Positions 2,462 through 53,135 of a stretch of 64,000 bases of DNA are shown here, piece by piece. The notes beneath the pieces are model-generated. The model was not told the origin of the DNA. It saw nothing but the letters and a program-made list of their open reading frames with translations, and did no database searches. Origin of the DNA: Sorghum bicolor (Eukaryota > Streptophyta > Magnoliopsida > Poales > Poaceae); NCBI RefSeq assembly GCF_000003195.3, contig NC_012870.2:36396741-36460740 (forward strand). Direction: 5' to 3'. Within the stretch, counting starts at the first letter, position 1. Every line of letters starts with the position of its first letter. Made by a program: the position numbers and the translations under genes.

Positions 2462-5400
2462 GATTAAGCCTAATAGTGACCAATTACACAGTCAAACCGT
2501 CGAGCTTAAGCCCATATAATCCCGGTAGTCCGTGAAATCTCGAAGGATTTCAAACCACATATCGTATATACATCCAAGATCGCAATAAGTTCAGCGGTCA
2601 CCATTCACAATTACATCCAGTTCGCATCATTCATCAAATACATCGGAGTACTTAGAGTTATTACAAACCAAGTTCTCAAGTAGCGGAAGCTTCAAAGTTT
2701 GAAAGTAACACACTCACACATTTAGTCTGATACAGTGCCATAATTTGATCATTCCCACAAAAGCAAAAGAGAAGGTAGAGTGACCATCGCCCTTGGTCTA
2801 GTCATCACCCATTGCTGGGTACAAGCAGTGAATGCAATAACCATAGTGCATCTGCCCATCTGCAAAACAACATGGGAATAGAACCCTGAGTACGGGAATG
2901 TACTCAGCTAGACTTACCCGTCATAAACCAAAATAAAGACTCTTCAAGGATCATGAAGGCTGTATAGTGGGGTAGCTGAGACTTGTTGCGAAAAAGCACT
3001 TACTTAACTAGAAGTACCTCCTAACAGTACTCCATTTTCTTTTTATTAGCTCAGGTTAGGTATTAATACCTATCATCTAGATTTGCACCAGTACTAATTC
3101 AAGCAAGTGTGGTAATATGATGGTACCTCATCATAGCATTCATAAACATTTATCATCATAACCCAAGTGTTCCATAGTCTTTATTACGAGGACAGGGCTC
3201 ATGTCAAGTGCTCACTATCCAGGAGCGATGGCGATTCGAATCGATTTCTGACCAGCTGGCGAGTTTATTCCCCACACAAAACACACTCACTGATCAAGTG
3301 AGCTACTGATCACCGTATTGCACTATCTAGGATAAATTTGCGGGTTCGACAGGCACCGCCCGTACCCGAGGACCGTTCCGGTGACCGAGGTATCCAAGGT
3401 ATACCAAGGTTGCGCGCCGCGCCCTCGTCATTCTCCTCAACCATCACCAATACAGCGCGTACATCGGGCCAATTCCCGACCCGGATAGTGCTCAGGCTTC
3501 GCGGTTGGAATGACTTATCCTTCCAGCTAAGTGTGGGGCATGCATTCAACATGACAAGAGGGCCGTCAACGATCGGTCCTTAATCGACACAGGCAGGGGC
3601 ACTACGGTCAACTCCACCATAAGACCTTGCCCGGTCTCAAATTCATTCCCACACTTGGTTACTTTTCCTCAAAGCATTATCAGCTAAACAAACAGGTGCC
3701 CACCTATATCTCGTAGGTGACAGGAAATCACCCGACTTCTACCGTGCTAAGCAAGCTAAGCAACAGACTCCGAGCCTATCTACATAGGACAAGGTAGATA
3801 AACAAGTGGTGATATCAAGGAGTATATATGCATCAACGGTATCACGCAATTCCTATCACTTAAATGCAACATAAAACAACAAGCATAATATATCATTTAA
3901 GTTAGCGAGAATAGGGAGACTTAGAATGCTCCGGGGCTTGCCTTTCTCAAACGTGCTCGGCTTGTGGTCCAGGCACTCCTGCAGCTCTTCGGGCTCTGGT
4001 GCTCCCAGAAGTTCTTGCTCCTGGGTCTCCTCCTGCTCCTCGGGTCCCACCTCGTTCTCCTGCGAGCCTGTATGATGCATGTGTGCTCATGAGTGGAGTG
4101 AGAGATGCCCGGGGTGCAGTGCTTATGCAAGTGGTTACCAGATGACCATGACATGGTGCATAGATGACATAGGTGGTTATTTCTATAAGGTAGTCAACAT
4201 CATCTAATAACATGTACTCAAATTAAGCATCTATTGCATTCTCTTCTACAAGTTGCCTTCATGGTTAACCAGCAAGCTAACATGATGCTTCAAAGATACA
4301 CCAAACACCCTTTTATTCAATTTAATTTATGCACAACAATTCATAATTTATTTAATCACTATTGGACCTACAAAAGTAGCATATGTTTCTGTATATCAAT
4401 AAATTCCGCAAAAATTACAGTAGCTCACTGGTCAAATATAAAGTCTATCATAATTTTTTCATAATATTTGGACACTTATTTTAGGCTACAAAAATGACAA
4501 GGTTATTCAATATAATTAGGTACAAATACCCTACTGTTGACCAAGTGTCAAACAACATATTTCAAAATTTTATAAATTACTTATCAACATAAGAAACACC
4601 CACAAAAATTTCCAGATTAATTGCATGATCCAGTTATTTATTAAAAATCATAAACCACTGCCATGCAAGCTTTTAAATCATCATAAATTAATTTATACAG
4701 CAAATAATATGTGACATATTTTCCCAGAGACTAACCATCCATGCAGAGCCAATAAAACAAGTTTCATATTTTTCTGAGTTTTATTTTAATTACTATACAT
4801 TTTCCAATTTCAGCAAAAACATGGATTAAATATATTTGTACAGAAAAGTTGTTCAAACATGACATGCAACCACACCAAACTATAGATCTGGAATTATAGA
4901 ACACACCAAAATTTATTTCATCATTTTTGGAGCCATATATCTCAAGATATGGATTTTATACTATTTAAACCATTTTCTAGCAAAACCTTTTAAAACGAAA
5001 CTCGAGTTAAAACGCTAAGGGCACCCAGATTTAACCCCGCAGAGCCACTGACAAGCGGGTCCCATGGGTCAGCCGACCCCACTTGTCGGCCACCCCGAGT
5101 TCCCGCGGCCAAAGACTCGCCGTAATCTCACCGCCGGTGTGGTCTCCGGCGACACCAAAGGGCTCTACGGCTTCGCGGACGCGAGACGAATCCATCCATG
5201 CCCTTTTTGGCGCCTACCAAGCAGCGGAACCACCTCGTCGTCGAGAATGGTGGACGCGGCAGCGCTGCTCGCCGTGGTCCGGCCACCTCGCGGAGGTAGA
5301 GCGCGCGCTAACGGCCGGAATGGGTGCGCAAAGCCAAGGCGGAGCTAACGCAACTAAAGATGGCAATTTCTACCCGATACCCGAAACCCGATGGGTAAAA

Positions 5401-7037
5401 ACCCTATTAGGGCAAGGGTATGGCTAATTTTTTCACCTATGGGTAAGTAGATGGGACAAAAGCGGGTAAGGGTATGGGGCTGCATTGCCCATACCCTTTA
5501 ACCCATGGGTAAATTAAACCCGACCTAACTCTATGAATCATGGGTCAAAATTACCATCACACAGCTCAAGCCCAGTAAAAGTGTATATAACGCAATCCTA
5601 GGTTTTCACCTCCCCATCCCACTTCCTCCCTCCCCTCCTGCGCTCCCCCTTGTCGCAGAGACTGCGACCGCGAGTTGCCGCGACTCCGGACGCCGCTGCC
5701 CCCATTTCTCATGACTTCAGATGACAAATTTTATATCAGACTATTTTGATTATGTGTTTTTATGACTAGTTTATTTGATTAATTTGTTACTGATTTGTGA
5801 TTCTTTGGCTGAAATTGGGAGTGTGATATATTGACACATGTAATTTTGATATTGCAAACATTTTTAGATCCATGGGTAAGGATAACCCATGGGTACCCGT
5901 TACCCGCATGGGTAAGGGTATGGGAAAGAATTCTTACCCGCGCATAGATATGGGTAAATTAGTGGGTAAAATATTTCCTCATGGGTAAGGGTATGGGTAG
6001 CTATAACCCGGTGGGTAATTACCCATTGCCATCTTTAAACGCAACTAACGATGCAAGAAATGGCGGAGAGGAGAGGGAGAACCGTGCGGACCGAGGGGTC
6101 ACCGGAGCTCCGACACGCTCCGGTGAGCTCTACCGGACGCGCGAGACTCACCGAGCGCGGTTGAGTGCGAGCACGGGGTGCGGCAGGACGAGGTGGAGCC
6201 GTCGGTGGTCGCGGAGGGGAGGGAGAAGGCCGGAGCTGGCAGGGGGAGGAGCTCCGAGCGTCGGCGGCGATGGCGCGCGGCGGAGCTGCTGCTGCTGCGA
6301 GCGAGAGAGAGGTCGAGAGCGCGAGCGGAGAGACGCAAATGGCAGCGGCGACGAAGGCGGACGCGGCCGGGCGCTCCTGGTGGCCGACCAGGGGGCGTCC
6401 AGGCTGCCGCATGCTCGCCACGCGGCGGCCGAGCTCTGCTGGCGCGCCACGGCGGCACGGCGCGGGTGCGGGGAAGGGGGGCGAGAGCGGGCGGGCTGGG
6501 CCGGCTTCGGCCAGCGGGCCAGAAGTGAGGCCGCGGCCTGCTAGCGCCCCCCTTTCCTATTTCCATTTTTTTGAATTTCTTTTCTCAATTCTTTTTCTAA
6601 ATTCATTTGGACCATTTTAAAATCCTTTTCACCCTTGGCTCCCAAAATAAAAGATGTTCTAAATAAAAAGTTCTACAACTTTGTTTCAAGTTGTAACTCC
6701 AAATTCCCAATAGGATTTGAAATGCAACCCAAACTAGTTCTAGGTTTTGAATAAATTCATTTTGGGGCTTTTTTAATAAAATCCATTTCTCAAATCTATA
6801 GCTCCAAAAATTTTACAAAATTATTCTTAATTCTTCTAAAACATATTTCAACCTAATTTGGGCATCACAAGGATTTTTGGAACAAACATATTATTCTCAT
6901 CATATTTAAGTTACATAAATTAAGCACATAAAATCATACTTGGATGAATGCTATGCTTATGTGATGCTATGCTTGATGAGAATGCTTATGAAAGGGTTTA
7001 TGAGACTAAGTGCATGCTTAACGCCTAGCGTGTTACA
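2462..7037 (-). repeat. 3' LTR of the chromovirus (outer end truncated)
   Basis: It is homologous to 44578-48394 over its length and ends at TGTTACA (7031-7037). The opposite terminal block TGTAACAGAACC present in the other LTR is missing, and homology starts at GATTAAGCC (2462). Without the hAT insert it is about 3.9 kb. GC-rich open frames near 5.1 kb and 6.0-6.6 kb are shared in all frames by the other LTR and look non-coding. Confidence 0.85.
5355..6037. mobile_element. Non-autonomous hAT element, 683 bp
   Basis: Terminal inverted repeats TAAAGATGGCAAT (left) and its complement ATTGCCATCTTTA (right) bound the segment. It is flanked by a perfect 8-bp duplication AACGCAAC at 5347-5354 and 6038-6045. 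The other chromovirus LTR lacks the segment at the same place and so shows the empty site. Both subterminal regions carry many copies of ATGGGTA and its complement. The centre holds a TATA-like TGTATATAA (about 5581) and a pyrimidine-rich leader-like stretch, as if derived from the 5' end of an autonomous parent. No transposase is encoded. Confidence 0.9.
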
Positions 7038-7049: not shown

Positions 7050-7873
7050 TAGGAAAATCTCGTCGCGAGATTTTGGGTTACTAACCATTTCTTATGAAAT
7101 TTTGGGTAAACTGTTTTTAGGTAATCCTCGGTTTCCCAGGTGGCATCTCTATCGCCGTGATGACTCCACACCACCTTGTAAGTCTTGACAACTCTATTCC
7201 GGGTTACCCGCTCCTTGGTATCTACGATACCCACCGATTGTTCTTTATACTCCAAGTCTGCCTTTATCTTGATTCCTCGAGGTTCGATCCTTTCCTCAGG
7301 CACTTTCAAACATTTTTGTAGCTGTGACACATGGAAAACTGGAAAGATTGAGCTCAACTCCTCCGGTAACTGAATCTTGTAGGCCACAGGGCCCTTCCTT
7401 GCTAGTATCTGATACGGTCCCACATATCTGGGTGCAAGCTTGCTTCGAACTCGGAAACGCTGAACTTTCTTCATTGGCGTAACCTTGAGGTAAACATAGT
7501 CACCTACATTGAACTCAAGTGCCCTTCTTTCTCTTGTTGGCATAACTCTTCTGTCGTGATTGTGCCGCTTTCATATGTTGTTGTATGATTTGCACCTTTT
7601 TCTTAGCCTCGTTCACGAAGTCGATACCATAGTATCTCCTTTCACCAGGTTCGACCCAGTTTAACGGAGTTCTACACTTACGACCATACAACGCTTCGAA
7701 CGGAGCCATCTTGATACTTTCTTGATAGCTATTATTGTACGAGAATTCGGCTAAAGGTAACCATGATTCCCATGATCCCTTGGATGATAACACACAAGCC
7801 CTCAGCATATCTTTGAGCACTTGATTGAGTCTTTCCGTTTGACCCGAGGGTTGGGGATGATACGCTGTGCTTC
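7049..7873 (-). pseudogene. Chromovirus integrase C-terminal half with chromodomain-like tail
   Basis: The minus strand reads a STAYHPQPSGQTER block next to the CACTA junction. It continues through the integrase core end (ESIKMAPFEALYGRKCRTP), a KLAPRYVGPYQI linker (the GPY/F module) and a terminal segment containing YKVVWSHHGDRDATWETE. The last part has the spacing of a chromodomain, which in chromoviruses tethers integration to methylated H3 chromatin. The aromatic cage is not clearly complete. A frame change occurs near 7515-7543. The first half of the integrase is at 38726-39485; the CACTA element separates them. Confidence 0.8.
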
Positions 7874-38226: not shown

Positions 38227-38725
38227 ATGATGATGGATTCTGTTGTCTATATTGGTATATATGTCTGGATGAATTCGATATGTGGGCCATCAGTCGTCAA
38301 AAGTTCAAACTGAAATTGTGACGGTGTTCTGTCGTCTACAGATGTTTAGGACGCCTATAAAAACAAGACGGTCCATGTCAACATATGACATCAAAGAGTC
38401 ATCACAAAAGGGTATAACCAGGTCTTCCTAACAGGGAATCTGTGACGGTGATAAAACAATAAGCGACGCGTTGACTACATAATATGTGACAGTTGCCGTC
38501 GTCATAAAAGAGTCGCCTTATGTGACGGTAGTGTAAATGCTGTCACAAAATGTTGGGACATATTGTGACGACTTAGCTTGTTACCGTCACATATCCATTT
38601 TGTGACGATCGTTTTGTGACGCCACACGTGACGGTGCTGTTTCGTCATAAGAATCATTTTATGACAACATTTAAGCTTTATGTGACCGACTGCTGTTGAC
38701 ATAAAATCCAACTTTTTTTGTAGTG
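38227..38725 (+). repeat. CACTA right subterminal array and terminus
   Basis: About a dozen copies of (T)GTGACGG, GTGACGA or their complements lie between 38318 and 38690, ending in TTTTTTTGTAGTG. Such arrays are the binding sites for TNPA-like proteins. Confidence 0.85.
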
Positions 38726-39485
38726 TTATCAGACTAGTCCCCAAACTCTTATGCATTCGCTCCCAATAATGAGCGGTGAACTGCGGTCCTCTATCTGATA
38801 TGATGGTCTTGGGAATACCATGTAGCTTGACGATCTCAGCCATGTATATATCAGCATACTCGGGAGGTCTGTATGTGTTCTTAACTGGAATGAAATGAGC
38901 CGACTTGGTCAATCGATCTATGATTACCCAAATCGAGTCATTCCCCTTTCGTGTTGTCGGCAAACCTATGATAAAGTCCATGCTGACCTCTTCCCACTTC
39001 CACTCTGGGACTGACAACGGTTGCAACAGACCTGCAGGTTTCATATATATAGCCTTGACTCTGCAAGATCTGTCACAACGGGCCACATATGCTGCTATCT
39101 GTTTCTTCATTTTGGTCCACCAAAAGTGAGACCTTAGGTCTTGATACATCTTGCTACTGCCAGGATGGATAGAAAGTTTTGAGAGATGCGCTTCATCCAT
39201 GATGCGATTCTTTAGTTCTCGATTTTTCAGAACTACCAACCAGTGCTGAAACCACAATACACCTTTTTCATCAACTCGGAACTGAGTCTTTGGATCGTCT
39301 TTGATCTTCTCTTTGATGTGGAAAATACCCTTATCTATTTTCTGACCTTCGATGACTTGACTTTCAAGTGAACAACTGAGCTGTATGTGACATAAGACCT
39401 CGCGATGCATGAGATTGAAACCATCTTCAAACAAAGGTTGAACTACTTGATAGTGTGGTTTGCGACTTAAGGCGTCTGCTACCAC
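38726..39485 (-). pseudogene. Chromovirus integrase N-terminal half
   Basis: The minus strand reads an integrase zinc-finger region (SIHPGSSKMYQDLRSHFWW) with the CxxC part changed to CDRSC. The catalytic core blocks WEEVSMDFIIGLP (first Asp) and TIISDRGPQF (second Asp) follow. The frame then ends at the TTA insertion site of the CACTA element. The third catalytic residue is carried in the fragment at 7049-7873. Confidence 0.85.
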
Positions 39486-40799
39486 ATTAGCCTTGCCTGG
39501 ATGATAGTGGACCTCCAGATCATAATCCTTGATCAGTTCTAACCATCTTCATTGCCTCATATTCAGCTCAGACTGAGTGAAGATGTACTTTAGACTTTTA
39601 TGATCTGTGTAGATATGACACTTGTTTCCTAACAAATAGTGCCTCTAGATCTTCAGAGCGTGCACTACGGCTGCTAGCTCGAGGTCATGAGTTGGGTAGT
39701 TGACTTCATGCTTCCTCAACTGTCGTGAAGCATAAGCTATAACTCTGCCTTCTTGCATCAGCACACATCCTAAACCACTTTTCGATGCGTCGCAAAACAC
39801 ATCAAAAGGCTTCTCGATATTGGGTTGTGCTAGAACGAGAGCGGTGGTCAGCAACTTTCGCAAGGTGCGGAAGGCTATCTCAAACTTATGATCCTTTTGT
39901 AGAAAACTAGTCATTGGCTTAGCAATCTTGGAGAAGTTAAGTATGAAACGATGATAATACCCGGCCAGACCAAGAAAACTTTGAACTTCCGAGACAGAAG
40001 TTGGTGCCTTCCAGTCCATGACTTCCTGTACCTTTGACAGATACACAGCAATCCCTTCTTCAGACAGAATGTGCCCTAGGAAAGGAACTTTCTTCAGCCA
40101 GAACTCGCACTTGCGGAACTTTGCATACAACTGATGCTCTCACAGTCGTGTTAGCACGACTCTTAAATGCTCGGCGTGATCTTGCTCATTCTCTAAATAG
40201 ACCAGAATGTCATCGATGAACACCACAACAAACTTGTCTAACTCTGGCATAAAGACCGAGTTGGTCAGATACATAAAGTATGCAGGAGCATTTGTCAACC
40301 CAAAGGACATGACAAGATACTCATACAACCCGTATCTGGTAGAAAAAGCAGTCTTCGGGATATCTTGCGGACGGATCTTGATTTGGTGATACCCGGACCT
40401 CAAATCTATCTTGGAAAACACTTTTGCCTTGGACAACGGATCAAACAAGATATCAATTCGCGGCAAAAGGTACTTATTCTTGATTGTCACCGCATTGAGT
40501 GGATGATAGTCCACGCACATGCGCAGCAATTGATCCTTCTTTTTCACAAACAACGCCGGACAACCCCATTTTGATGAACTTGGCCGGATGAATCCTTTAT
40601 CTGACAACTCCTTTAGTTGATTCTTCAATTCAGCGAGTTCATTAGGCGGCATCCGGTACGGCCTTCTAGATATCGGTGCTGTACCTCGTATCAACTCTAT
40701 TGCAAACTCTACTTCCCTATCTGCGGGAAGTCCTAACAACTCTTCGGGGAAAACATCAGGGAACTCGCAGACCACCGGTATATGTTCTAGTGGAACCAC
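39486..40799 (-). pseudogene. Chromovirus reverse transcriptase and RNase H
   Basis: It is colinear with the protease upstream and the integrase downstream. Reverse transcriptase blocks seen are [56 protein letters not shown] and the catalytic FIDDIL (about 40214). The RNase H region has [16 protein letters not shown] and [13 protein letters not shown]. In-frame stops lie at 40142-40140 (TGA after VLTRL) and 39647-39645 (TAG after HALKI), with another TGA in the MRQ-RWLE stretch near 39550. Relatives have Arg or Trp at such positions, so C-to-T or G-to-A decay is likely. Confidence 0.88.
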
Positions 40800-41267: not shown

Positions 41268-42362
41268 CTACTGCTTCTTGGGGTAGGGGCATTCCTTAGC
41301 ATAGTGCCCCATCTTGTGGCAGTTATAGCACGGTCCCTTGGTCATGTTGTTGGCAGCAAGTGCCGCAGATTGAATTGCCTTTGGCTTGGTGGGAGCTATC
41401 GCTACCTTGTACGGCTTCTCCTGCGTTGGATGCCCTGTGTTCCTTCTCTGCGGTGGTCGGAACCTAGCACCTGGGGCAGGAGGACGATACTGCGGACGTC
41501 CTGCCACTGGTGCCCTGGACTGAGATGACCCGGCTTCAAAAGCCCTCTTGGGAGACTTGGAAGCACTATAGTTGTTGTTATTGTTCTCTTGGGTCAAACA
41601 GTCACTGATGTAGGCATTGAAGGTAGCCCGGGTTCCTGTACCCATGGTCTTCAGCATCTTTGGGCTCAAGCCTCTCTGGAAACTAGCGATCTTCTTGGCC
41701 TCCGTGTTCACAAACTCGGGAGCGTAACGGGCGAGATTGTTAAAAGCATGCAGATACTCCTTCACAGACTTCGTTCCCTGGGACAGCCTCATGAATTCTC
41801 CAACCTTCATTTTCACCACACCCGGAGGAATATAATTTCCCCGAAAGGCAGTGGTGAAGCGGTTCCACATGATAGGGGTCCCCTCTAGGTAGGTGGTACG
41901 ATGATGGGACCACCAAATCCCAGCAGGCCCTTGCAATTGATGCGCTGCATACTCGGCCTTGAGCTCTTCGGTCATCCGAAGGAGACAGAACGTTTGTTCC
42001 ATGGTGTTAATCCACTCATCTGCCTCGAGCGGTTCCAAGGCCTCCTTAAAGACTGGTGGTTTAGTATCCATGAAGTCCTTGAAAGAGCTGTACTGATTGG
42101 CTTCACGGCCACCCTGTTTATCCCCACGGCGGGTGTTGTCAACGATATTGCGCATGGCTTCTTCCATGTTGCACTGCATCTGCTCCATGTTGCGTTGGCT
42201 CCCCTGAAACTGCGCGAAAAACACGTCCGCAGTGTACGGAGGATGGGGTGGTGGTGGCGGTGATGGTGCTCTCTCCTCATTCCTTTGAGCTCCATCTCTG
42301 GAAGTACTTACTCCTAGACCGGGGTTGCTATTACCCCCGCCACGTGTTTGCACCATCTGCAT
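41268..42362 (-). CDS. Chromovirus gag, 364 aa
   Basis: The ORF is uninterrupted. The start used is 42362, but a second methionine two codons later (MVQTRGGG) is more family-like. A proline/histidine-rich stretch (residues about 30-45) is followed by the gag domain (KPPVFKEALEPLEADEWI, then GPAGIWWSHHRTTYL, then FMRLSQGTKSVKEYLHAFNNLARYAPEF split around conserved positions). A CCHC zinc knuckle (C345, C348, H353, C358) ends the protein. It should form the particle shell and bind RNA. The stop at 41270-41268 is in frame with the protease; the context CAG TAG GCA could be read through, but plain decay is as likely. Confidence 0.85.
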   Translation of the reverse strand: MQMVQTRGGGNSNPGLGVSTSRDGAQRNEERAPSPPPPPHPPYTADVFFAQFQGSQRNMEQMQCNMEEAMRNIVDNTRRGDKQGGREANQYSSFKDFMDTKPPVFKEALEPLEADEWINTMEQTFCLLRMTEELKAEYAAHQLQGPAGIWWSHHRTTYLEGTPIMWNRFTTAFRGNYIPPGVVKMKVGEFMRLSQGTKSVKEYLHAFNNLARYAPEFVNTEAKKIASFQRGLSPKMLKTMGTGTRATFNAYISDCLTQENNNNNYSASKSPKRAFEAGSSQSRAPVAGRPQYRPPAPGARFRPPQRRNTGHPTQEKPYKVAIAPTKPKAIQSAALAANNMTKGPCYNCHKMGHYAKECPYPKKQ

Positions 42363-42682: not shown

Positions 42683-43726
42683 CTACTCGCTATGGTCATT
42701 GTCCATGCCAGAGCCTTCCTCGTCCTCATCTCCACTAGCGGCTGCCAACAACTCTAGATCCTCATCCATCTCATCCTCAGAGTCTAACTCAGCTGCTCCA
42801 GGCAGGTGGTGAGGGTGGAGCTGGTTATGCAGCTGATGGATCTCCTCATGCAGGTTCTCATTGTACTCCTCAGCATTAGCTAGCTGCTGCTCAAGCTCTA
42901 GCTGTCGGGCCCTCAGGGTGTCCTCCTCGTGCCAGGCTTCATTCCTCTGACCAAGCACATGAACTAGCATGCGCTCGCAGTTCCTATGAGCGGTGGTCAC
43001 CCTGTCCCTCTGCTCCCTCACTGCGAGCAGGTCCTGACTCAACTCACTATTCTTCTGGACTGCCTGATCTCTCTCTCGGGTCACGCGGGCCAACTCTGCC
43101 TGCAACCTCTCAACCTCAGTGTCAAACTCACGCTGCCACTGGCGCTTCTCATCCTGAACTGTGAGAAGAGACCCGGACAAGCGTCCCAAACAACGCTCCA
43201 GACCCCCATAGGTCTTCATCAAAGCGAACTTAGCACTCATAGCTGCGCTGTCACTGTGCTGATCCTCATCCGCACTCCTCTCTAGAGCGTTCACCTCGGA
43301 CTGATCCCACACCGAAGTGTAGGGGTCACCCCGGGGAAACACCCCAGCGAAGGCGTGGGCCAGCTCCTGTGGGAACATCTCCATGATGTCCCTCAGAACT
43401 GTAAAAGCTGCTCTGCTGGCACCCTAGAAAGGCGTGGTACCTCGAGACTCGTACAGCCAGCCACCCCAGGCGGGGTCACCTCCACTGGTAGGGACCACTG
43501 CCTCGATACCCACCAGGGTCCCATCACCAAGCTGCTCCTTGTTCCAATAGTAGCGAGGTTCCCTTCCTTCAGGATACCCCATCGAGCTGAGCACCCTCCA
43601 AAGCAAGGTGGGCATCCCAAACTCTTCTAGGAACTTGCTCTTATGACGCGAGCTCCTAGCTGCCAACTGATGGTGAGGGGCCTGCGCACTAGTGGACATG
43701 CGAGCGGTGAGCCTAGTGCGTGCCAT
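42683..43726 (-). pseudogene. Extra chromovirus ORF upstream of gag with histone H3 tail-like N terminus, coiled coil and acidic C terminus
   Basis: The frame of 347 codons is interrupted only by a TAG at codon 101 (43426-43424). Directly from the initiator Met, the protein aligns without gaps to the H3 tail. Using H3 numbering, A1, R2, T3, T6, A7, R8, S10, T11, A15, P16, Q19, L20, A21 and R26 are identical. Each lysine is replaced: K4 by R, K9 by M, K14 by Q, K18 by H, K23 by R and K27 by H. The rest has no histone fold. Residues about 31-180 look globular, about 189-304 form a strong coiled coil (heptads such as VERLQAELARV), and about 313-347 are dominated by Asp and Glu. It lies between the primer site and gag, in the gag orientation. 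What it does is unknown; a histone mimic is inferred. Confidence 0.75.
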
Positions 43727-44536
43727 CTGCTGAAAATATAATACCTTGGGTAAGATTGAGGATTATCTTTTGTTAACTTAATTGAAATTGGGACAGATTT
43801 AATTAAGGGGAGGAAGTAAGCAATGATATGGAATGAACATGATGCATGCACGAACTTATGATCTCACAAACTTAGAAACAAAAGTTAACACTAATCGGTA
43901 TATGCGGTGGCACACAACATTCTCTCATAACGTAACTAGCCTTCTAAGTGGGAACGTGGTTAGTGTACATGCAGAAAACTCATTTCAGCCCAACCACAGT
44001 ATAAACATGTAGAACAAGAATTTAAATCTACACACCCCACGCGCATAGACAAGACTTCCATGCATATGGTGTGTTACTACCCCCATCATCGCCCTAGTGA
44101 CGTCATTGCCTCTCAGGACGGAATCTCCCAACATGCGGTACTGTTCCCAGGCACACCAAACATGTGTGCATGACACAGCACCTAAGATCACTTCCCAAGA
44201 TCAGCATTATATCCGATCATGCTCTCACAGCTCCCACTTACCGAGGCATAGAGGAAGAATTGATCCATACATTACCACTCAAATGAATGGCACTCATACT
44301 ATGGCACGCTGTATGAGCGACGAAAAGAGAAATATGATGCACGACCCCCAAGTCAGTACTTAACTAGCCACCTTAGAGTCCTTAACCGGGCATAAAGGAT
44401 ATGACTATGGCACACTAAGTAGTTTTCCAGAAACTTATTTTAACACCTTGATTATCATTAATTGATAATAATCTTTTATTAAACCGGTTTAAGTTTAGTT
44501 TAGAACGTACTTATGAACAGTAACTCGCTAAACGTT
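43727..44536 (-). other. Chromovirus 5' leader
   Basis: About 800 bp lie between the primer-binding site and the extra ORF. No coding frame is supported. A splice acceptor-like or packaging signal cannot be judged by eye. Confidence 0.45.
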
Positions 44537-44548
44537 GCTCTGATGCCA
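44537..44548 (-). other. Primer-binding site of the chromovirus
   Basis: On the minus strand TGGCATCAGAGC lies two bases inside the 5' LTR end. It differs by one base from the initiator-Met tRNA consensus site. Confidence 0.8.
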
Positions 44549-44550
44549 GC

Positions 44551-47500
44551 TGTAACAGAACCGCCCAAATTATAATAGATTAAGCCTAATAGTGACCAAT
44601 TGCACAGTCAGACAATCGAGCTTAAGCCCATATAATCCCGGTAGTCTGTGAAATCTCAAAGGATTTAAAACCACATATCGTACATACAGCTAAGATCGTA
44701 ATAAGTTCAACGGTGACCATTCACAATTACATCCAGTTCGCATCATTCATCAAATAAATCGGAGTACTTAGAGTTATTACAAACCAAGTTCTCAAGTAGC
44801 GGAAGCTTCATTGTTTGAAAGTAACACACACACATTTAGTCTGATACAGTGCCATAATTTGATCATTCCCATAAAAGCAAAAGAGAAGGTAGAGTGACCA
44901 TTGCCCTTGGTCTAGTCATCACCCATTGCTGGGTACAAGCAGCGAATGCAATAACCATAGTACATCTGCCCATCTACAAAACAACATGGGAATAGAACCC
45001 TGAGTACGGGAATGTACTTAGCTAGACTTACCCGTCATAAACCAAAATAAAGACTCTTCAAGGATCATGAATGTTGTATAGTGGGGTAGCAGAGACTTGT
45101 TGCGAAAAAGCACCTACTTAACTAGAAGTACATCCTAACAGTACTCCCTTTTCTTTTATTAGCTCAGGTTAGGTATTAATACCTATCATCTAGATTTGCA
45201 CCTGTACAAATTAAAGCAAGTGTGGTAATATGATGGTACCTCATCATAGCATTAATAAGCATCTATCATCATAACCCAAGTGTTCCATAGTCTTTACTAC
45301 GAGGACAGGGCTCATGTCAAGTGCTCACTATCCAGGAGCGATGGCGATTCAAATTGATTTTTGACCAGCTGGTGAGTTTATTCCCCACACAAACCACACT
45401 CACTGATCAAGTGAGCTACAGATCACCGTATTGCACTATCTAGGACAAATTTGCGGGTTCGACAGGCACCGCCCGTACCCGAGGACCGTTCCGGTGACCG
45501 AGGTATCCAAGGTATACCAAGGTTGCGCGCCGTGCCCTCGTCGTTCTCCTCAACCATCACCAATACAGCGCGTACATCGGGCCAATTCCCGGCCCGGATA
45601 GTGCTCAGGCTTCGAGGTCAGAACAACTTATCCTTCCAGCTAAGTGTGGGGTATGAGTTCAACATGACAAGAGGGTCGTCAACGATCGGTCCTTAATCGA
45701 CACAGGCAGGGGCACTATGGTCAACTCCACCATAAGACCCTGCCCGGTCTCAAATTCATTCCCACGCTTGGTTACTTTTCCTCAAAGCATTATCAGCTAA
45801 ACAAACATGTGCCCACCTATATCTCGCAGGTGACAGGAAATCACCCGACTTCTACCGTGCTAAGCAAGCTAAGCAACAGACTCCGAGCCTATCTACATAG
45901 GACAAGGTAGATAAACAAGTGGTGATATCAAGGAGTAATATGCATCAACGGTATCAAGCAATTCCTATCACTTAAATGCAACATAGAAGAACAAGAATAA
46001 TATATCATTTAAGTTAGCGAGAATAGGGAGACTTAGAATGCTCCGGGGCTTGCCTTTCTTAAATGTGCTCGGCTTGTGGTCCGGGCACTCCTGCAGCTCT
46101 TCTCCGGGCTCTGGTCCTTCCAGAAGTTCCTGCTCCTAGGTCTCCTCCTGCTCCTCGGGTCCCACCTCGTTTTCCTGCGAGCCTGTATGATGCATGTGTG
46201 CTCATGAGTGGAGTGCGAGATGCCCGGGGTGCAATGCTTATGCAAGTGGTTACCAGATGACCATGACATGGTGCATAGATGACATAGGTGGTTATTTCTA
46301 CAAGGTAGTCAACATCATCCAAGAACATGTACTCAAATTAAGCATCTATTGCATTCTTTTCTACAAGTTGCCTTCATGGTTAACCAGCAAGCTAACATGA
46401 TGCTTCAAAGATACACCAAACACCCTTTTATTCTATTTAATTTATGCACAACAATTCATAATTTATTTAATCACTATTGGACCTACAAAAGTAGCATATG
46501 TTTCTGTATAGCAATAAATTCCACAAAAATTACAGTAGCTCACTGGTCAAACATAAAGTCTATCATAATTTACAAGGTTATTTGGACACTTATTTTAGGC
46601 TACAAAAATTACAAGGTTATTCAATATAATTAGGTACAAATACCCTACTGTTGACCAAGTGTCAAACAACAGATTTCAAAATTTTATAAATTACTTATCA
46701 ACATAAGAAACACCCACAAAAATTTCCAGATTAATTGCATGATCCAGTTATTTATTAAAAATCATAAACCACTGCCATGGAAGCATTTAAATCATCATAA
46801 ATTAATTTATACAGCAAATAATATGTGACATATTTTTCCCAGAGACTAACCATCCATGCAGAGCCAATAAAACAAGTTTCATATTTTTCTGAGTTTTATT
46901 TTAATTACTATACATTTTCCAATTTCAGCAAAAACATGGATTAAATATATTTGTACAGAAATGTTGTTCAAACATGACATGCAACCAGACCAAACTATAG
47001 ATCTGGAATTATAGAACACACCAAAATTTATTTCATCATTTTTGGAGCCATATATCTCAAGATATGGATTTTATACTATTTAAACCATTTTCTGGAAAAC
47101 CTTTTAAAACGAAACTCGAGTTAAAATGCTAAGGGCACCTGGATTTAACCCCGCAGAGCCACTGACAAGCGGGTCCCGTGGGTCAGCCGACCCCACTTGT
47201 CGGCCACCCCGAGTTCCCGCGGCCAAAGACTCGCCGAAATCTCACTGCCGGTGAGGTCTCCGGCGACACCAAGGGGCTCTACGGCTTCGCGGACGCGAGA
47301 CGAATCCAACCATGCCCTTTTGGCGCCTACCAAGCAGCGGAACCACCTCGTCGTCGAGAATGGCGGACGCGGCGGCGATGCTCGCCGTGGTCCGGCCACC
47401 TCGCGGCGGTAGAGCACACGCTAACGGCCGGAATGGGTGCGCAAAGCCAAGGCGGAGCTAACGCGACTAACGACGCAAGTAATGGCGGAGAGGAGAGGGA

Positions 47501-48394
47501 GAACCGTGCGGACCGAGGGGTCGCCGGAGCTCCGACTCGCTCCGGTGAGCTCTACCGGACGCGCGAGACTCACCGAGCGCGGTTGAGTGCGAGCACGGGG
47601 TGTGGCAGGACGAGGCGGAGCCGTCGGTGGTCGCGGAGGGGAGGGAGAAGGCCGTAGCTAGCAGGGAGAGGAGCTCCGAGCGTCGGCGGCGATGCCGCGC
47701 GGCGGAGCTGCTGCTGCGGCTGCGCGAGCGAGAGAGAGGGCGAGAGCGCGAGCGGAGAGGCGCAAATGGCAGCGGGGACGAAAGCGGACGCGGCCGGGCG
47801 CTCCTGGTGGCCGACCAGGGCGCATCCAGGCTGCCGCATGCTCTCCACGCGGCTGGGCCGGCTTCGGCCAGCAGGCCAGAAGTGAGGCCGCGGCCTGCTA
47901 GCGCCCCCCTTTCCTATTTCCATTTTTTAAATTTCTTTTCTTAATTCTTTTTCTATATTCATTTGGACCATTTTAAAATCCTTTTCACCGTTGGATCCCA
48001 AAATAAAAGATGTTCTCAATAAAAAGTTCTACAACTTTGTTTCAAGTTGTAACTCCAAATTCCCAATAGGATTTGAAATGCAACCCAAACTAGTTCTAGG
48101 TTTTGAATAAATTCATTTTGGGGCTTTTTGTATAAAATCCATTTCTCAAATTCTATAGCTCCAAAAATTTCACAAAATTATTCTTTATTCTTCTAAAACA
48201 TATTTCAACCTAATTTGGGCATCACAAGGATTTTTGGAACAAACATATTATTCTCATCATATTTAAGTTACATAAATTAAGCACATAAAATCATACTTGG
48301 ATGAATGCTATGCTTATGTGATGCTATGCTTGATGAGAATGCTTATGAAAGGGTTTATGAGACTAAGTGCATGCTTAACGCCTAGGGTGTTACA
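44551..48394 (-). repeat. 5' LTR of the chromovirus
   Basis: The LTR is 3844 bp and bounded by TGTAACA and TGTTACA. It is homologous to the left copy, with several small deletions (for example about 75 bp in the GC-rich part near 47.8 kb) and without the hAT insert. Its internal GC-rich open frames are non-coding by comparison with the other copy, where frames are not conserved. Confidence 0.9.
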
Positions 48395-49101
48395 CAACCC
48401 AGGCCTAGGTTGCGGCCTGGGTGGGAGGGATGTGCCTGCGCGCGGTTTCGTGCTCTGCGTGCACTGGGCCTAGGCAAGCTGGGCCGAAACCGAAACAAAA
48501 AAAACAGCGCTGCCACTGGGCCGCGCACAGAGCCGGCCACGCGCGCGCCAGCCGCTGCTGGGCCACGTGGGCCCCGAGTGACGCCAGGCCGAATTGGCCA
48601 GTTTTACACACAAAAATAGCACAGTTTTTCTTTTTCCTTTTTTCTAGAAGCAATTTATGCATATTTGATTAAATTTTACACAAATTTTATTGCTTTTCTC
48701 TGTATAATATTTGTCCAACGATAATTTTATTCAGAGAACAGTAAAGTATTCAGATGTTTCTGGAGGAATAGATAAAGAAATTATTAAAGTTTCCGCTACG
48801 TATTTATAGATATTTGTTTCACTATTAAATTCGAACCAACAGGAGAATTAAATTTTGAAAAAGATATGTTTTCTAGATTATTATAATATTGTTATTATCC
48901 TGACCAACGTTGATTAATGATAGTATTATGATGTGATTAAAAGATTATTATGCATTAATTCTATTTCTGCCCAACCATGATATAGTTTTATTGCATAAAG
49001 AGTTGTATGTTTTAATTTTGACCAACCTTGATACGAAGGCATGCAATTGTGATTATTTATGTTCTCACCCAGAGGTTTGTGTTTCAGGAGCTTACTCGTT
49101 G
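48395..49101 (+). other. Copia leader, second part, probably containing a leader intron end
   Basis: A GC-rich start (48395-48600) is followed by AT-rich, pyrimidine-containing sequence and a plausible 3' splice site (GTGTTTCAG at about 49079-49087) just upstream of the gag start codon. The first part of this leader is at 1810-2461. Confidence 0.45.
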
Positions 49102-49537
49102 ATGGCTTTCATCAAAACCATTCCACCACTCAAAGGAGACAACTACGTTGAGTGCAGGAAAAAGATCGACATGGCCTTCACCTTTGCTGAGGTGGACTGG
49201 GTCCTTAACACAGAGCGTCCCATCCAGCCCATGGCACCTGTGAGGGCAACAGATGAGACAGATGATGCATGGCAGAAAAGAGAAAGAGAGTTTGCTCCCA
49301 TCCAGATGTCTTATGACCTTGAAAAGAAAAAGTGGGAATCAGCAAACAAGAAATGTAAAACGCTTGTACAGAACACGATGGAGTCTCACATATCAGATTT
49401 GATTCTAGTAGTTGACAGTGTTAAAGATTATCTTGGTACCATAAAGAGGCAGTTTAAGACATATGCAATAGAGATGGTCAAAGAACTGATCTCACAGAAA
49501 TATACTGGTGGTGGCACTGGTATTAGAGAGAACATCC
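49102..49537 (+). pseudogene. Copia gag, N-terminal part
   Basis: Starting MAFIKTIPPLKGDNYVEC, this is the copia gag N-terminal domain. It contains the MAFTFAEVDWVL block and a downstream helix-rich region, up to GTGIRENI at the CATCC insertion site. The frame resumes at 61935. An earlier ATG at 48991 is in frame but lies upstream of the likely splice acceptor, so 49102 is preferred. Confidence 0.75.
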
Positions 49538-50266
49538 TGTTGACGCCGTTTTTGGACACGTATCTTTTGACACGTACCTGAGGATTAGTAAAGTATAGAT
49601 CGGCAGATGAGGCAACGGTAGCTAGTCTGCAGGGAAGTTGCCAATGAAGGTGGTTGCCGATGAAGAGACAATTGAATGTGACTAAGTCCAGAGGTGGTGA
49701 CGTGTTCGTGCCGATGATCAGTATTAGTGTTTGCCGATAGCCACAACAGGAGGTCTGCCGATGACTGTGAAGGAAAGCGTGGAGATTGCCGATTGATCTA
49801 TGGCGGTGCCCCAGTCGGTCACAAGGGGGTAGTTTTATGTTTTCCTTAGTTATTATAATTCGTTTTGTGTACGGGTTCCGTTTAGTTTGGAATTCGAGAC
49901 CTAGTCGTGTCTGGTTGTAGCTCTTCGGACAGGGTATAAATATAGACCCTAGGGCAATGTAATGAGACAATCTATCAATCAATCAAACACAAACTTTTAC
50001 TTATATTCCAGTATCTACTTTTTCCATGACTTCGTCATATTTTCTTTTTATTACGAGTTCTTAGGAATTCGTCGACTTAAGCTCGGCGTGTTCTCAAGTT
50101 CCGCGTGATCACCTCTTGGCCGTGACATCCGGGCGCATCGCTGTTGTCGGGACCAAAGTGGTCGAGTTACCACCTTTGTCGATTGTAAGGTCAAATCGGC
50201 TGGCACGCCATAACGTTTGAATCGGGTATTAGCCCTTTGTGTTTGCAGATCAGTTTTGCATCAACA
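49538..50266 (+). repeat. 5' LTR of the Tat element
   Basis: It has TGTTGACG and CATCAACA ends. It contains seven GCCGAT/ATCGGC hexamers by eye and a TATA box. Confidence 0.92.
49934..49942 (+). promoter_or_regulatory. TATA box of the Tat 5' LTR
   Basis: GGTATAAATATAG is intact here. The 3' LTR has TGTAAATATAG at the equivalent place (about 61601), so the TATA is damaged there. Confidence 0.6.
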
Positions 50267-50273
50267 CATCTTT

Positions 50274-50291
50274 TGGCACGCCCAGTGGGAC
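50274..50291 (+). other. Primer-binding site of the Tat element
   Basis: TGGCACGCCCAGTGGGAC begins seven bases after the LTR. The primer tRNA was not assigned. Confidence 0.6.
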
Positions 50292-50312
50292 AGATTCAAG
50301 ATCAAGATCGAC

Positions 50313-53135
50313 ATGGCAAATACCGAGTTCGACTTTGAGAACGTCATCTCTGTGACAGAAGCCAATCTCAGAGATGAGCAGAAGCAAGCTATTGCAAAAG
50401 CCATGGAGGACTACAAGCAGCAATGTTTGAAATCCTTCAGTATTAACAGGAGTGGCCAGGTAATCCAGAAAGAAGCATTGCCGGCACCTCGGCATATTAC
50501 TTTTGAAGCCAATCCTGGTAAACTTCAAGACATGGTTGATAATGCTATTGACCGTGCCTTGATCAATCAAGCTGGTGTGCTGTCCAACACGGTTTTCAAT
50601 GCTGTGGCTAGAACTTTCAAAGAAGGACAGTTGCCCCCAATTATGTGGGTCCTGCCCATCATCAGCCGGGATCACCAGTGGTTACAGCTCCATCGGCTAC
50701 TACAGCCGCTGCGGGTATAGAGGTTACTTCTCCTCCAAGTACCTTAGGAATCACTAATGCACAATCTACATCGATGACGACCGATCCATCAACATCAGAC
50801 AGGCAAATCAAGCTTGGCACAGATCTATTGGCATCGGCAATGTCGGGATCTATTCCTCCCAACTGGTGGGGTTATGGTATGCCCCCAGAGATGATGTTGA
50901 AGACTCCTGAAACGTCTCAAGTGGCTGATATGACAGGCAAGGCTCCTATGACATTGGCACCTCCAAATCTGCCGAAGAATCGGAGTCCCCAGTTTACTAC
51001 AACTACTACTGCAAGACCTTACACTAGGAATTCTCAAGCTCCAACGTTCCAGATGCCTAACGCATCGACAGATTCAATGCCGATGCAGCAGAGGTTTATG
51101 ACACAGCCAGGGTATGTCAATTCAATGATGATGCCCAATTTCCAGCCATCGGCAGGATTTATGCCAATGAATGCTAACAGTGGATGGACGGGACAGTTAG
51201 TCTTTCCACAGATGCCTCAGCCGAATCATCAGGCTCTAGGGTTTCAACAAGGCCAAGTTCAACTTGGGTTTTAGAATCAAGAGTTGGTCAACCAGCCGAT
51301 GAATCTTGGTCAGCAGATTGGTGGTCAGATGGTTAACCCAATGTTACATGCAGATCATGCACCTCAGCGATACGTGGAAGCATATCAGCAGGCGCCAGAT
51401 CCACAACCGCCTCATCGGCAAGATGCCAATGCTTATTGGGCCGATAAGATAGCTGAAGTAATGAGAGACCAATTTGGGATAAAACCCAAAGTCAAAACTT
51501 ACTCTTATCGGACACTGTATCCTCCTGCATATGATTTAATCCCACTTCCAAATCGGTACAAGGTACCAGATTTCACTAAGTTTTCTGGACAGGATGATAC
51601 ATCGACTATGAAGCACATCAACAGGTTCATCATCCAATGTGGTGAGGCTGCTAACAGAGATGAGTTGAGGGTTCGTTTGTTCTCGTCATCTTTGTCTGGA
51701 TCGGCTTTCACTTGGTTTATTTCATTACCTCCCAACTCAGTGATCACTTGGGCCGATTTAGAGAAGCAGTTCCACAAATATTTCTTTTCTGGAGTCCATG
51801 AAAAGAAGATCACCGATTTAGTCAGATTGAAGCAGCGCAGTGATGAATCGGTTGAGAGCTTTGTGCAAAGGTTACGGGAGGTCAAGAATAAATGCTATAG
51901 TCTGGTTCTAGATGATCGGCAGCTTGCCGATTTAGCTTTTCAGGGACTGTTGCCACATATCAGAGACAAGTACGCTTCTCAAGAGTTCGAAAGTCTGAGT
52001 CACTTGGTGCAAAGGATTTCTGACCAAGATATTAAGCCTTTTGAGCCTAAGAGAGCATGGAATAAAAAGGTATCATTTGTCGATGAAGCAGCAAGCTTAG
52101 ATTCTGATGAGGAGCCAGTCATCGGCTTAGCAGAGTGGGTGAAGAACAAAAAGCCGATGTCTTGCCCTTTTGGGCATAAAGAGCCAGAAAAGTTTGCATT
52201 TGACTTCACCAAGGCCGATAGGATATTTGACTTTCTACTTTAGGAAGGGCAAATCAAATTGTTGCCTAATCATGTGATTCCATCGGCTGAAGAATTAAAG
52301 AAGATGAAATATTGCAAGTGGCACAATGCAACCTCTCACAGCACCAATGAGTGCAAGGTTTTTAGGCAACAGCTGCAATCGGCTATAGAATCTGGGAGAA
52401 TCAAGTTTGATAATTCCAAAGCTCACAAGCCGATGAAGATCGATCAACATCCTTTCCCAACAAATATGTTGGATGCTAAGGGAAAGACCAAAGTCTTGAC
52501 GTCAGAAGCAGTTGAAAGAAGTGCATCGGTGGATCCTCAGCATCAGATTACTGCTGTCGATGCTAAAGGAAAGGGTTTGATCTAGGAAGGAAATAGCTCA
52601 GGAAGGCCTCCCCGATCTGGCATTGTGATAACTCATAGAAGGCATCGGGAGACTTGGCAGCAACGCGAGGATCGGTATCGGCGCCAGCAGGAAGATTATC
52701 GTCGGGAAGAAGAAAGACGCCGACAGGAGTGGAATCGGCACAAGGATCATTGGAACTGCCCATTCTTTATCCATTGTTGGGAGCAGAACATTAAATTACC
52801 CACTGTTAGAGACTGCCCTGAATGCAATGGTTATGATCGGTATGACAGACCCGATCGGCACTATCAAGATGATGATCGGCGATTTGATGGGCCGATCAGG
52901 GGGAGGACTTCAGTTCATGATCGGCTGGGGGCAGGCTCAGTGTGCATGATAGACTTGGTGATTGTATTGAATACTTTCCCAGGAATCAAGAGAAACTTGA
53001 AGAGATGGCGAATGCTCGAGTTCCCGATGAGTTCATATTTTGCAGGGATGCTAATACTTATCGGATGGAGTCCAGGGAAAGTCGTCGCCCATAGGCAAGG
53101 CAGCCACAACTTCCTCCATGGTGTCCAGAGGGATT
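50313..53135 (+). pseudogene. Tat gag, frameshifted
   Basis: It starts MANTEFDFENV. A frameshift near 50640 moves the reading into a Pro/Met/Gln-rich linker. After a TAG near 51272 the gag domain follows: RYKVPDFTKFSGQDDTS, then SGSAFTWFISLPPNS, then FHKYFFSGVHEKK, then SVESFVQRLREVKNKCYS. TAG codons near 52241 and 52583 precede EGQIK and EGNSS, positions where glutamine would be expected. The C-terminal region has C/H pairs in KYCKWHNATSHSTNEC and CPFFIHCW that suggest degenerate zinc knuckles, and a DRYRRQQEDYRREEE basic stretch. It is non-functional as it stands. Confidence 0.8.

Follow-up and report, generated by a model that had tools for sequence, protein, structure and literature searches.

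The minus strand of the 64,000-nucleotide stretch of Sorghum bicolor contig NC_012870.2 analyzed here (positions 36,396,741 to 36,460,740 of the forward strand; hereafter the window) carries what its sequence identifies as an interrupted and broken Ty3/gypsy element of the Tekay/Del type, and the extra 5' open reading frame (ORF) of this long terminal repeat (LTR) retrotransposon, ORF0, begins with a close likeness of the histone H3 tail. Comparison of ORF0 with related proteins revealed that lysine 9 (K9) and its neighbors are kept in this tail while K14, K18, and K23 are lost, mostly to Arg or His, across subfamilies, and that conservation is higher in the tail than in the remainder of the protein. 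The pattern points to a conserved H3K9 mimic whose probable role is that of a multivalent decoy or ligand, the target being either the machinery of H3K9 methylation or the chromodomain of the element itself, and suggests that the element, by imitating chromatin, interferes with the silencing directed at it. To the specific proposal that ORF0 of this lineage encodes an H3K9 mimic that would act as a decoy in trans, weakening the loop between H3K9 methylation (H3K9me) and non-CG methylation, we give an even chance.

The H3-like tail in the window and in related proteins

The features of ORF0 in the window, including a region similar to a double-stranded RNA (dsRNA)-binding domain (dsRBD), are as follows.

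43661..43726, minus strand: H3-like tail, Met plus 21 residues, aligned without gaps to H3 1-21 and 13/21 identical in the window copy
43424..43726, minus strand: ORF0 up to the premature TAG, 100 codons
42683..43726, minus strand: full ORF0 frame, 348 codons when both TAGs are counted, the in-frame one (codon 101) and the one at the end; its parts are the tail, dsRBD-like region, coiled coil, and acidic end (domains predicted on the relative P0082)
43727..43740, minus strand: TATTTTCAGCAG, read from the sequence, abutting the ORF0 ATG; a candidate 3' splice acceptor by resemblance

From the ATG at 43726 the frame is open for 100 codons (43424-43726) up to a TAG, past which it continues down to 42683. 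The residues following Met are ARTRLTARMSTSAQAPHHQLAARSSRH, in which K4, K9, K14, K18, K23, and K27 have become R, M, Q, H, R, and H; the initial annotation of this stretch had reported these replacements along with 14 H3-identical positions, exactly as they are read in the ORF. Among the 882 ATG-started open stretches of 22 codons in the window, the tail scored 13/21 against H3 1-21 and the runner-up 6/21, and the best of 200,000 shuffles of the tail's own 21 residues reached 10/21. When the 100-residue ORF was compared with all PDB sequences, H3-type chains accounted for 59 of the best 60 of 124 matches, with alignments beginning at residue 1 or 2 and a best E of just 0.019, and the one other entry among these 60 was a chlorophyll-binding protein aligned elsewhere. 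Less decayed relatives match H3 far better than the window ORF does, with E values of 1.1e-6 for P0104 and 7e-4 for P0090, H3-type chains occupying all of the best 60 of 136 and of 135 matches, respectively.

These PDB matches of the relatives, the conservation within the family, and the 882-stretch and shuffle tests rule out a chance resemblance in a single copy, the H3-like positions recurring in 53 other distinct tails of homologous ORFs. A misread histone gene was also rejected, since the ORF lies between the LTR and gag and no histone fold follows the tail in the structural model, where a dsRBD-like fold and a coil are found instead; the Pfam scans returned no histone family. Immediately upstream of the tail, the residue preceding Met is Gln in 11/11 tail-bearing relatives with residues before Met, which is what CAG would encode, and the ORF0 message may be spliced just upstream of the start codon.

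Three protein searches provided 135 relatives, or 136 sequences including the window's own frame, among which 55 were classified as tail-bearing because their N termini match H3 at 8 or more of the 21 positions. By first source, these 55 N termini came from the window (1), the search with the Met9-bearing window query (27), a second search (13), and a third (14), and they represent 54 distinct tails over the 33 residues compared, 53 without that of the window. The numbers of these 53 tails that keep each H3 residue, with frequent replacements in brackets, are listed below.

Positions 1-7: A1 50, R2 44, T3 49, K4 28 (R 24), Q5 8, T6 48, A7 50
Positions 8-13: R8 47, K9 53, S10 51, T11 37, G12 47, G13 53
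Positions 14-18: K14 1 (R 42, W 6), A15 42, P16 52, R17 36, K18 0 (H 46, R 3)
Positions 19-27: Q19 38, L20 53, A21 48, T22 1, K23 0 (R 44, S 5), R26 40, K27 0

Lys9, G13, and L20 are therefore invariant, and the closest tails reach 19/21 identities with H3 (P0104 and P0107, which differ from it by K14R and K18R, and also P0115). All 27 tail-bearing relatives retrieved with the Met9 query carry Lys9, which means that Lys9 was not favored by the query. The H3K9-like ARK[ST] motif is present in the family (R8 in 47, K9 in 53, and S10 in 51 of 53 tails) and missing from the window copy, whose Met9 and Ala13 occur in none of the 53 others; judged by this comparison, Met9 is a lesion of the window copy. 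The earlier proposal, in which an ORF preceding gag in a Tekay/Del-type element starts with a mimic of the H3 tail, is accordingly supported and extends to several subfamilies, whereas its statement that every tail lysine is replaced holds for the window copy and fails for the family, which always keeps K9 and has K or R at position 4. The loss of K14, K18, K23, and K27 is real but family-wide, leaving that of K9 as the only window-specific one among the replaced lysines.

Among the 81 relatives without a recognized tail, 73 either start no earlier than the dsRBD-like domain or are devoid of the anchor motif, and eight start inside the tail or just ahead of that domain; none of the 81 exhibits a complete alternative N terminus, and more than 12 leading residues are left unaligned only in P0129, a coil fragment. 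The relatives were sorted by eye into eight subfamilies, A (that of the window copy) to H, and identities were compared among selected members of the 136. Mean tail identity exceeded that of the dsRBD-like region in 20/21 subfamily pairs (0.71 vs 0.52), the exception being B-H with 0.73 for both, and exceeded that of the coil in 15/15 pairs (0.67 vs 0.45). Subfamily C (P0088-P0099) is devoid of the dsRBD-like region and retains the tail, coil, and acidic end. Searches of viral contigs (queries P0003, P0082, P0104, and P0090) and of genome contigs (query P0071) returned no relatives.

Capture from a host H3 gene is the probable origin of the tail, as far as its residues can tell. At each of positions 1-17 and 19-22, the H3 residue is found in at least one tail (K14 and T22 in P0103 alone), and convergence fits this scatter over the tails less well than does an H3 exon captured from the host and then subject to drift and selection.

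Predicted fold of the ORF0 protein and possible roles of its tail

In the model of P0082, residues 1-34 have a predicted local distance difference test (pLDDT) score below 50, so that the tail is predicted to be disordered and, on this prediction, has the flexibility proper to an H3K9 mimic. The middle domain follows the alpha-beta-beta-beta-alpha order of the dsRBD-type fold, helix 161-296 (136 residues) is predicted to form a coiled coil, and an acidic end closes the predicted protein. No Pfam family matched the N-terminal half; over the coil the scans gave weak rows (MAD, DMPK_coil, and others), each of them below its cutoff, and a PAF15-like row for P0107 (E 0.64) was not accepted as evidence.

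With these parts, ORF0 could work as follows. Removal of the initiator Met would expose Ala1 as in H3, and the coiled coil would display several tails together in an oligomer. Host H3K9 methyltransferases of the SUVH4/5/6 class would bind the tail and probably methylate K9, upon which the tail would engage H3K9me readers of the CMT2/CMT3, AGDP1/ADCP1, and SHH1 class; as a decoy in trans, it would then weaken the H3K9me/non-CG methylation loop silencing the element, while the dsRBD-like part would handle structured or double-stranded RNA. A tail that is methylatable at K9 and devoid of K14, K18, and K23 (with Arg at position 4 in 24/53) would resemble an H3 tail of a permanently repressive type. 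ARKS is the motif of H3K9 writers, the mammalian enzyme depending critically on R8 (PMC10611923; this and the other papers are cited for the portions of their text available). In Arabidopsis, H3K9me2 is written by SUVH4/5/6 and recruits CMT2 and CMT3, and AGDP1 reads H3K9me2 jointly with unmethylated K4 (PMC7218100).

We consider a decoy for the H3K9 loop to be the most economical use of the tail, with chances about evenly balanced; the likelihoods attached here to this reading, to a chromodomain ligand, to import or tethering, and to a relic are matters of judgement. A broader version is put forward more tentatively, at somewhat less than even chances: the lineage would have captured the first H3 codons, reworked them into a tail rid of its acetylation-site lysines yet always retaining K9, and combined this tail, in multimeric form, with a dsRNA-binding-type fold as two arms, against the H3K9me loop and against RNA silencing, and the tail may in addition be the ligand of the type II chromodomain.

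Several points weigh against the decoy. The signature drifts, with T3R (3 tails) or T3P (1) in subfamily G and also R8H in P0082; most of the relatives come from metagenome gene calls and are copies in decay, and their division into subfamilies was made by eye. Tails were chosen by the threshold of at least 8/21 H3 matches, although the 81 other relatives show no alternative N terminus, and the second and third searches used tail-containing queries, with a possible bias towards tail words. Purifying selection is deduced from protein conservation only. As for the dsRBD-like domain, the top Foldseek matches were dsRBDs, all matches being weaker than E 0.001, and the Pfam dsRNA-binding model gave no match at E 1 or better.

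The initial annotation had read the Met at position 9, which the window copy does carry, as possibly that of a pseudosubstrate, a Lys-to-Met dominant inhibitor of H3K9 methyltransferases, and had named the lack of Met9 conservation among related ORFs as grounds for refuting it; Met9 occurs in 0/53 other distinct tails, Lys9 being present in every one, and the copy that bears it has a premature stop and sits in a broken element. As a family trait this inhibitor was rejected, and as an explanation of the protein it is very improbable; any action of the protein on the H3K9 pathway would be exerted with a methylatable lysine. The basic H3 tail is able to bind importins, and the tail of ORF0 could serve nuclear import or chromatin tethering rather than interference with silencing, a role made conceivable by the basic character retained through Lys-to-Arg or Lys-to-His changes at positions 4, 14, 18, and 23, and by the predicted nuclear location of grass 5' ORFs (PMC11728184). 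We hold it to be rather unlikely, as charge alone cannot account for the invariant K9, G13, and L20 or for the near-invariant A1, T3, A7, S10, and P16. A passive relic, namely a captured H3 exon retained by descent alone, would fit the presence of nearly all H3 residues of positions 1-22 in some tail, as well as the scattered changes in many single tails; set beside a tail more conserved than the rest of the protein, it is improbable.

The main rival of the decoy makes the tail a ligand of the element's own integrase chromodomain, so that oligomers of ORF0, by occupying this type II chromodomain or redirecting it, would shape insertion sites. It draws on the Tekay-type chromodomain of the window element (R-V-T-R-N-R and a conserved Trp), on the unknown partner of type II chromodomains (PMC6317226; PMC3350952), and on sunflower Tekay elements, where a pericentromere bias of insertion is seen in those lacking the 5' extra ORF and not in those that have it (PMC11728184). 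The sunflower ORF, however, shares no sequence similarity with the grass ORFs (PMC11728184), and the methyl-lysine cage is largely missing from type II chromodomains (PMC3350952; PMC6317226), which leaves this explanation unlikely, if worth serious attention.

The host element in the window

On the minus strand the element runs in the order 5' LTR, ORF0, gag, reverse transcriptase, first part of the integrase, long interruption, integrase C terminus, and 3' LTR, with the following features besides ORF0.

44551..48394, minus strand: 5' LTR, 3,844 bases, with the ends TGTAACACCC...TGTTACA
44537..44548, minus strand: primer-binding-site-like TGGCATCAGAGC, read from the sequence, next to the 5' LTR and presumably of the initiator-tRNA-Met type
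41268..42362, minus strand: gag, with Retrotrans_gag (PF03732) at 1.6e-20 and a zinc knuckle at 9.7e-5
39645..40799, minus strand: reverse transcriptase region, interrupted by stops, with RVT_1 (PF00078) at 2.7e-24 on 40143-40799
38502..39548, minus strand: first part of the integrase, with Integrase_H2C2 (PF17921) at 1.9e-14 and rve at 2.4e-5, below cutoff
7052..7570, minus strand: integrase C terminus, with an SH3_Tf2-1 module (PF24626) at 1.4e-25 and the chromodomain
about 7088-7213, minus strand: chromodomain (PF00385) at 7.6e-4, below Pfam's cutoff
2462..7037, minus strand: 3' LTR in the pieces 2462-5360, 6038-6431, and 6494-7037, with about 27 bases gone at the outer end

The LTR pair was found by comparing the whole window with itself, in which 44578-48394 pairs with 2462-7037 in three pieces that are 95.8, 93.5, and 97.4% identical, with 137 mismatches in 3852 columns; a repeat search confined to 28000-52000 missed it, as the 3' LTR is located elsewhere. 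In having LTRs no shorter than about 3 kb, with ORF0 following the 5' LTR and preceding gag, the element agrees with the Retrosat2/RIRE3/RIRE8 type, and the integrase C terminus bears a type II chromodomain with Tekay motifs. The published motifs are (K/R)-X-(L/T)-R-X-(k/r), a conserved Trp, and EEXTWEXE (PMC3350952), of which the window chromodomain has the R-V-T-R-N-R stretch, the single conserved Trp, and EEXTWEXE in part, as TWEXE only. Its LTR ends, TGTAACACCC...TGTTACA, are close to, but not the same as, the TGTCACACCC...GGGCGTGACA of Retrosat2 and RIRE8 (PMC3485330), and this difference makes it a relative of these elements and not a member of that family.

The defects of the element comprise the stop in ORF0, the stops in pol, and the interruption at about 7570-38502, which splits the integrase in two and probably consists of nested insertions. 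At 2440-2465, the 3' LTR gives way to other sequence, its outermost 27 bases being gone. Beyond the element, a plus-strand ORF (48991-49581) adjoins the 5' LTR and resembles the N terminus of a Ty1/copia-type gag; plus-strand ORFs within 50217-52243 resemble the gag region of another Ty3/gypsy element.

Relation to known systems

Histone mimicry is a known kind of strategy, in viruses and in host proteins. A literature search covering titles and the beginnings of abstracts among the best matches, with few subscription papers included, retrieved no earlier report of a transposable-element protein with some 20 residues of the H3 tail, nor of an H3-like tail in a plant retrotransposon ORF. Should ORF0 act on the H3K9 pathway, it would attest directly, at the molecular level, to an arms race of retrotransposons with H3K9/CHG silencing, supply a function for an ORF hitherto without one, and render testable the question of which partner type II chromodomains have; a retrotransposon protein might also be recognized by antibodies to H3K9 marks.

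ORF0, or the 5' additional ORF (aORF), of the grass Tekay (Del) elements Retrosat2, RIRE3, RIRE8, maize Tekay, and sorghum Sb7 occupies the same position, from the 5' LTR to gag, in elements with long LTRs (PMC11728184; PMC3485330). The window element agrees in layout and LTR length with Retrosat2, RIRE3, and RIRE8 (PMC3485330), to which it is likened by their published description. The dsRBD-like fold of grass ORF0 is already published, the maize Tekay and Sb7 proteins being described with a DRBM-like structure and a long C-terminal helix (PMC11728184; PMC3485330); neither of the two main texts uses the word "histone", and PMC3485330 proposes enzyme functions for ORF0.

Host H3K9 mimics methylated by EHMT1/2, such as WIZ and LIG1, likewise bear an H3K9-like ARK motif on a non-histone protein (PMC10611923). 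Theirs are short motifs, whereas ORF0 presents some 20 residues from the first residue onwards, on the protein of a mobile element and with the other tail lysines gone. Acquisition of a host-type domain by an LTR retrotransposon is also seen in orchid Ty3/gypsy elements with an N6-methyladenosine (m6A) RNA demethylase domain, which is an enzyme, unlike the histone tail of ORF0 (PMC9289625). Finally, the geminivirus TrAP is a genomic parasite's inhibitor of SUVH4/KYP that counters plant H3K9me2 silencing, as is proposed here for ORF0 (PMC4606454). Compared by description, TrAP differs in binding the catalytic domain of KYP, with no H3-like tail mentioned in the available text (PMC4606454), and sets a precedent for attacking the H3K9 loop by another route.
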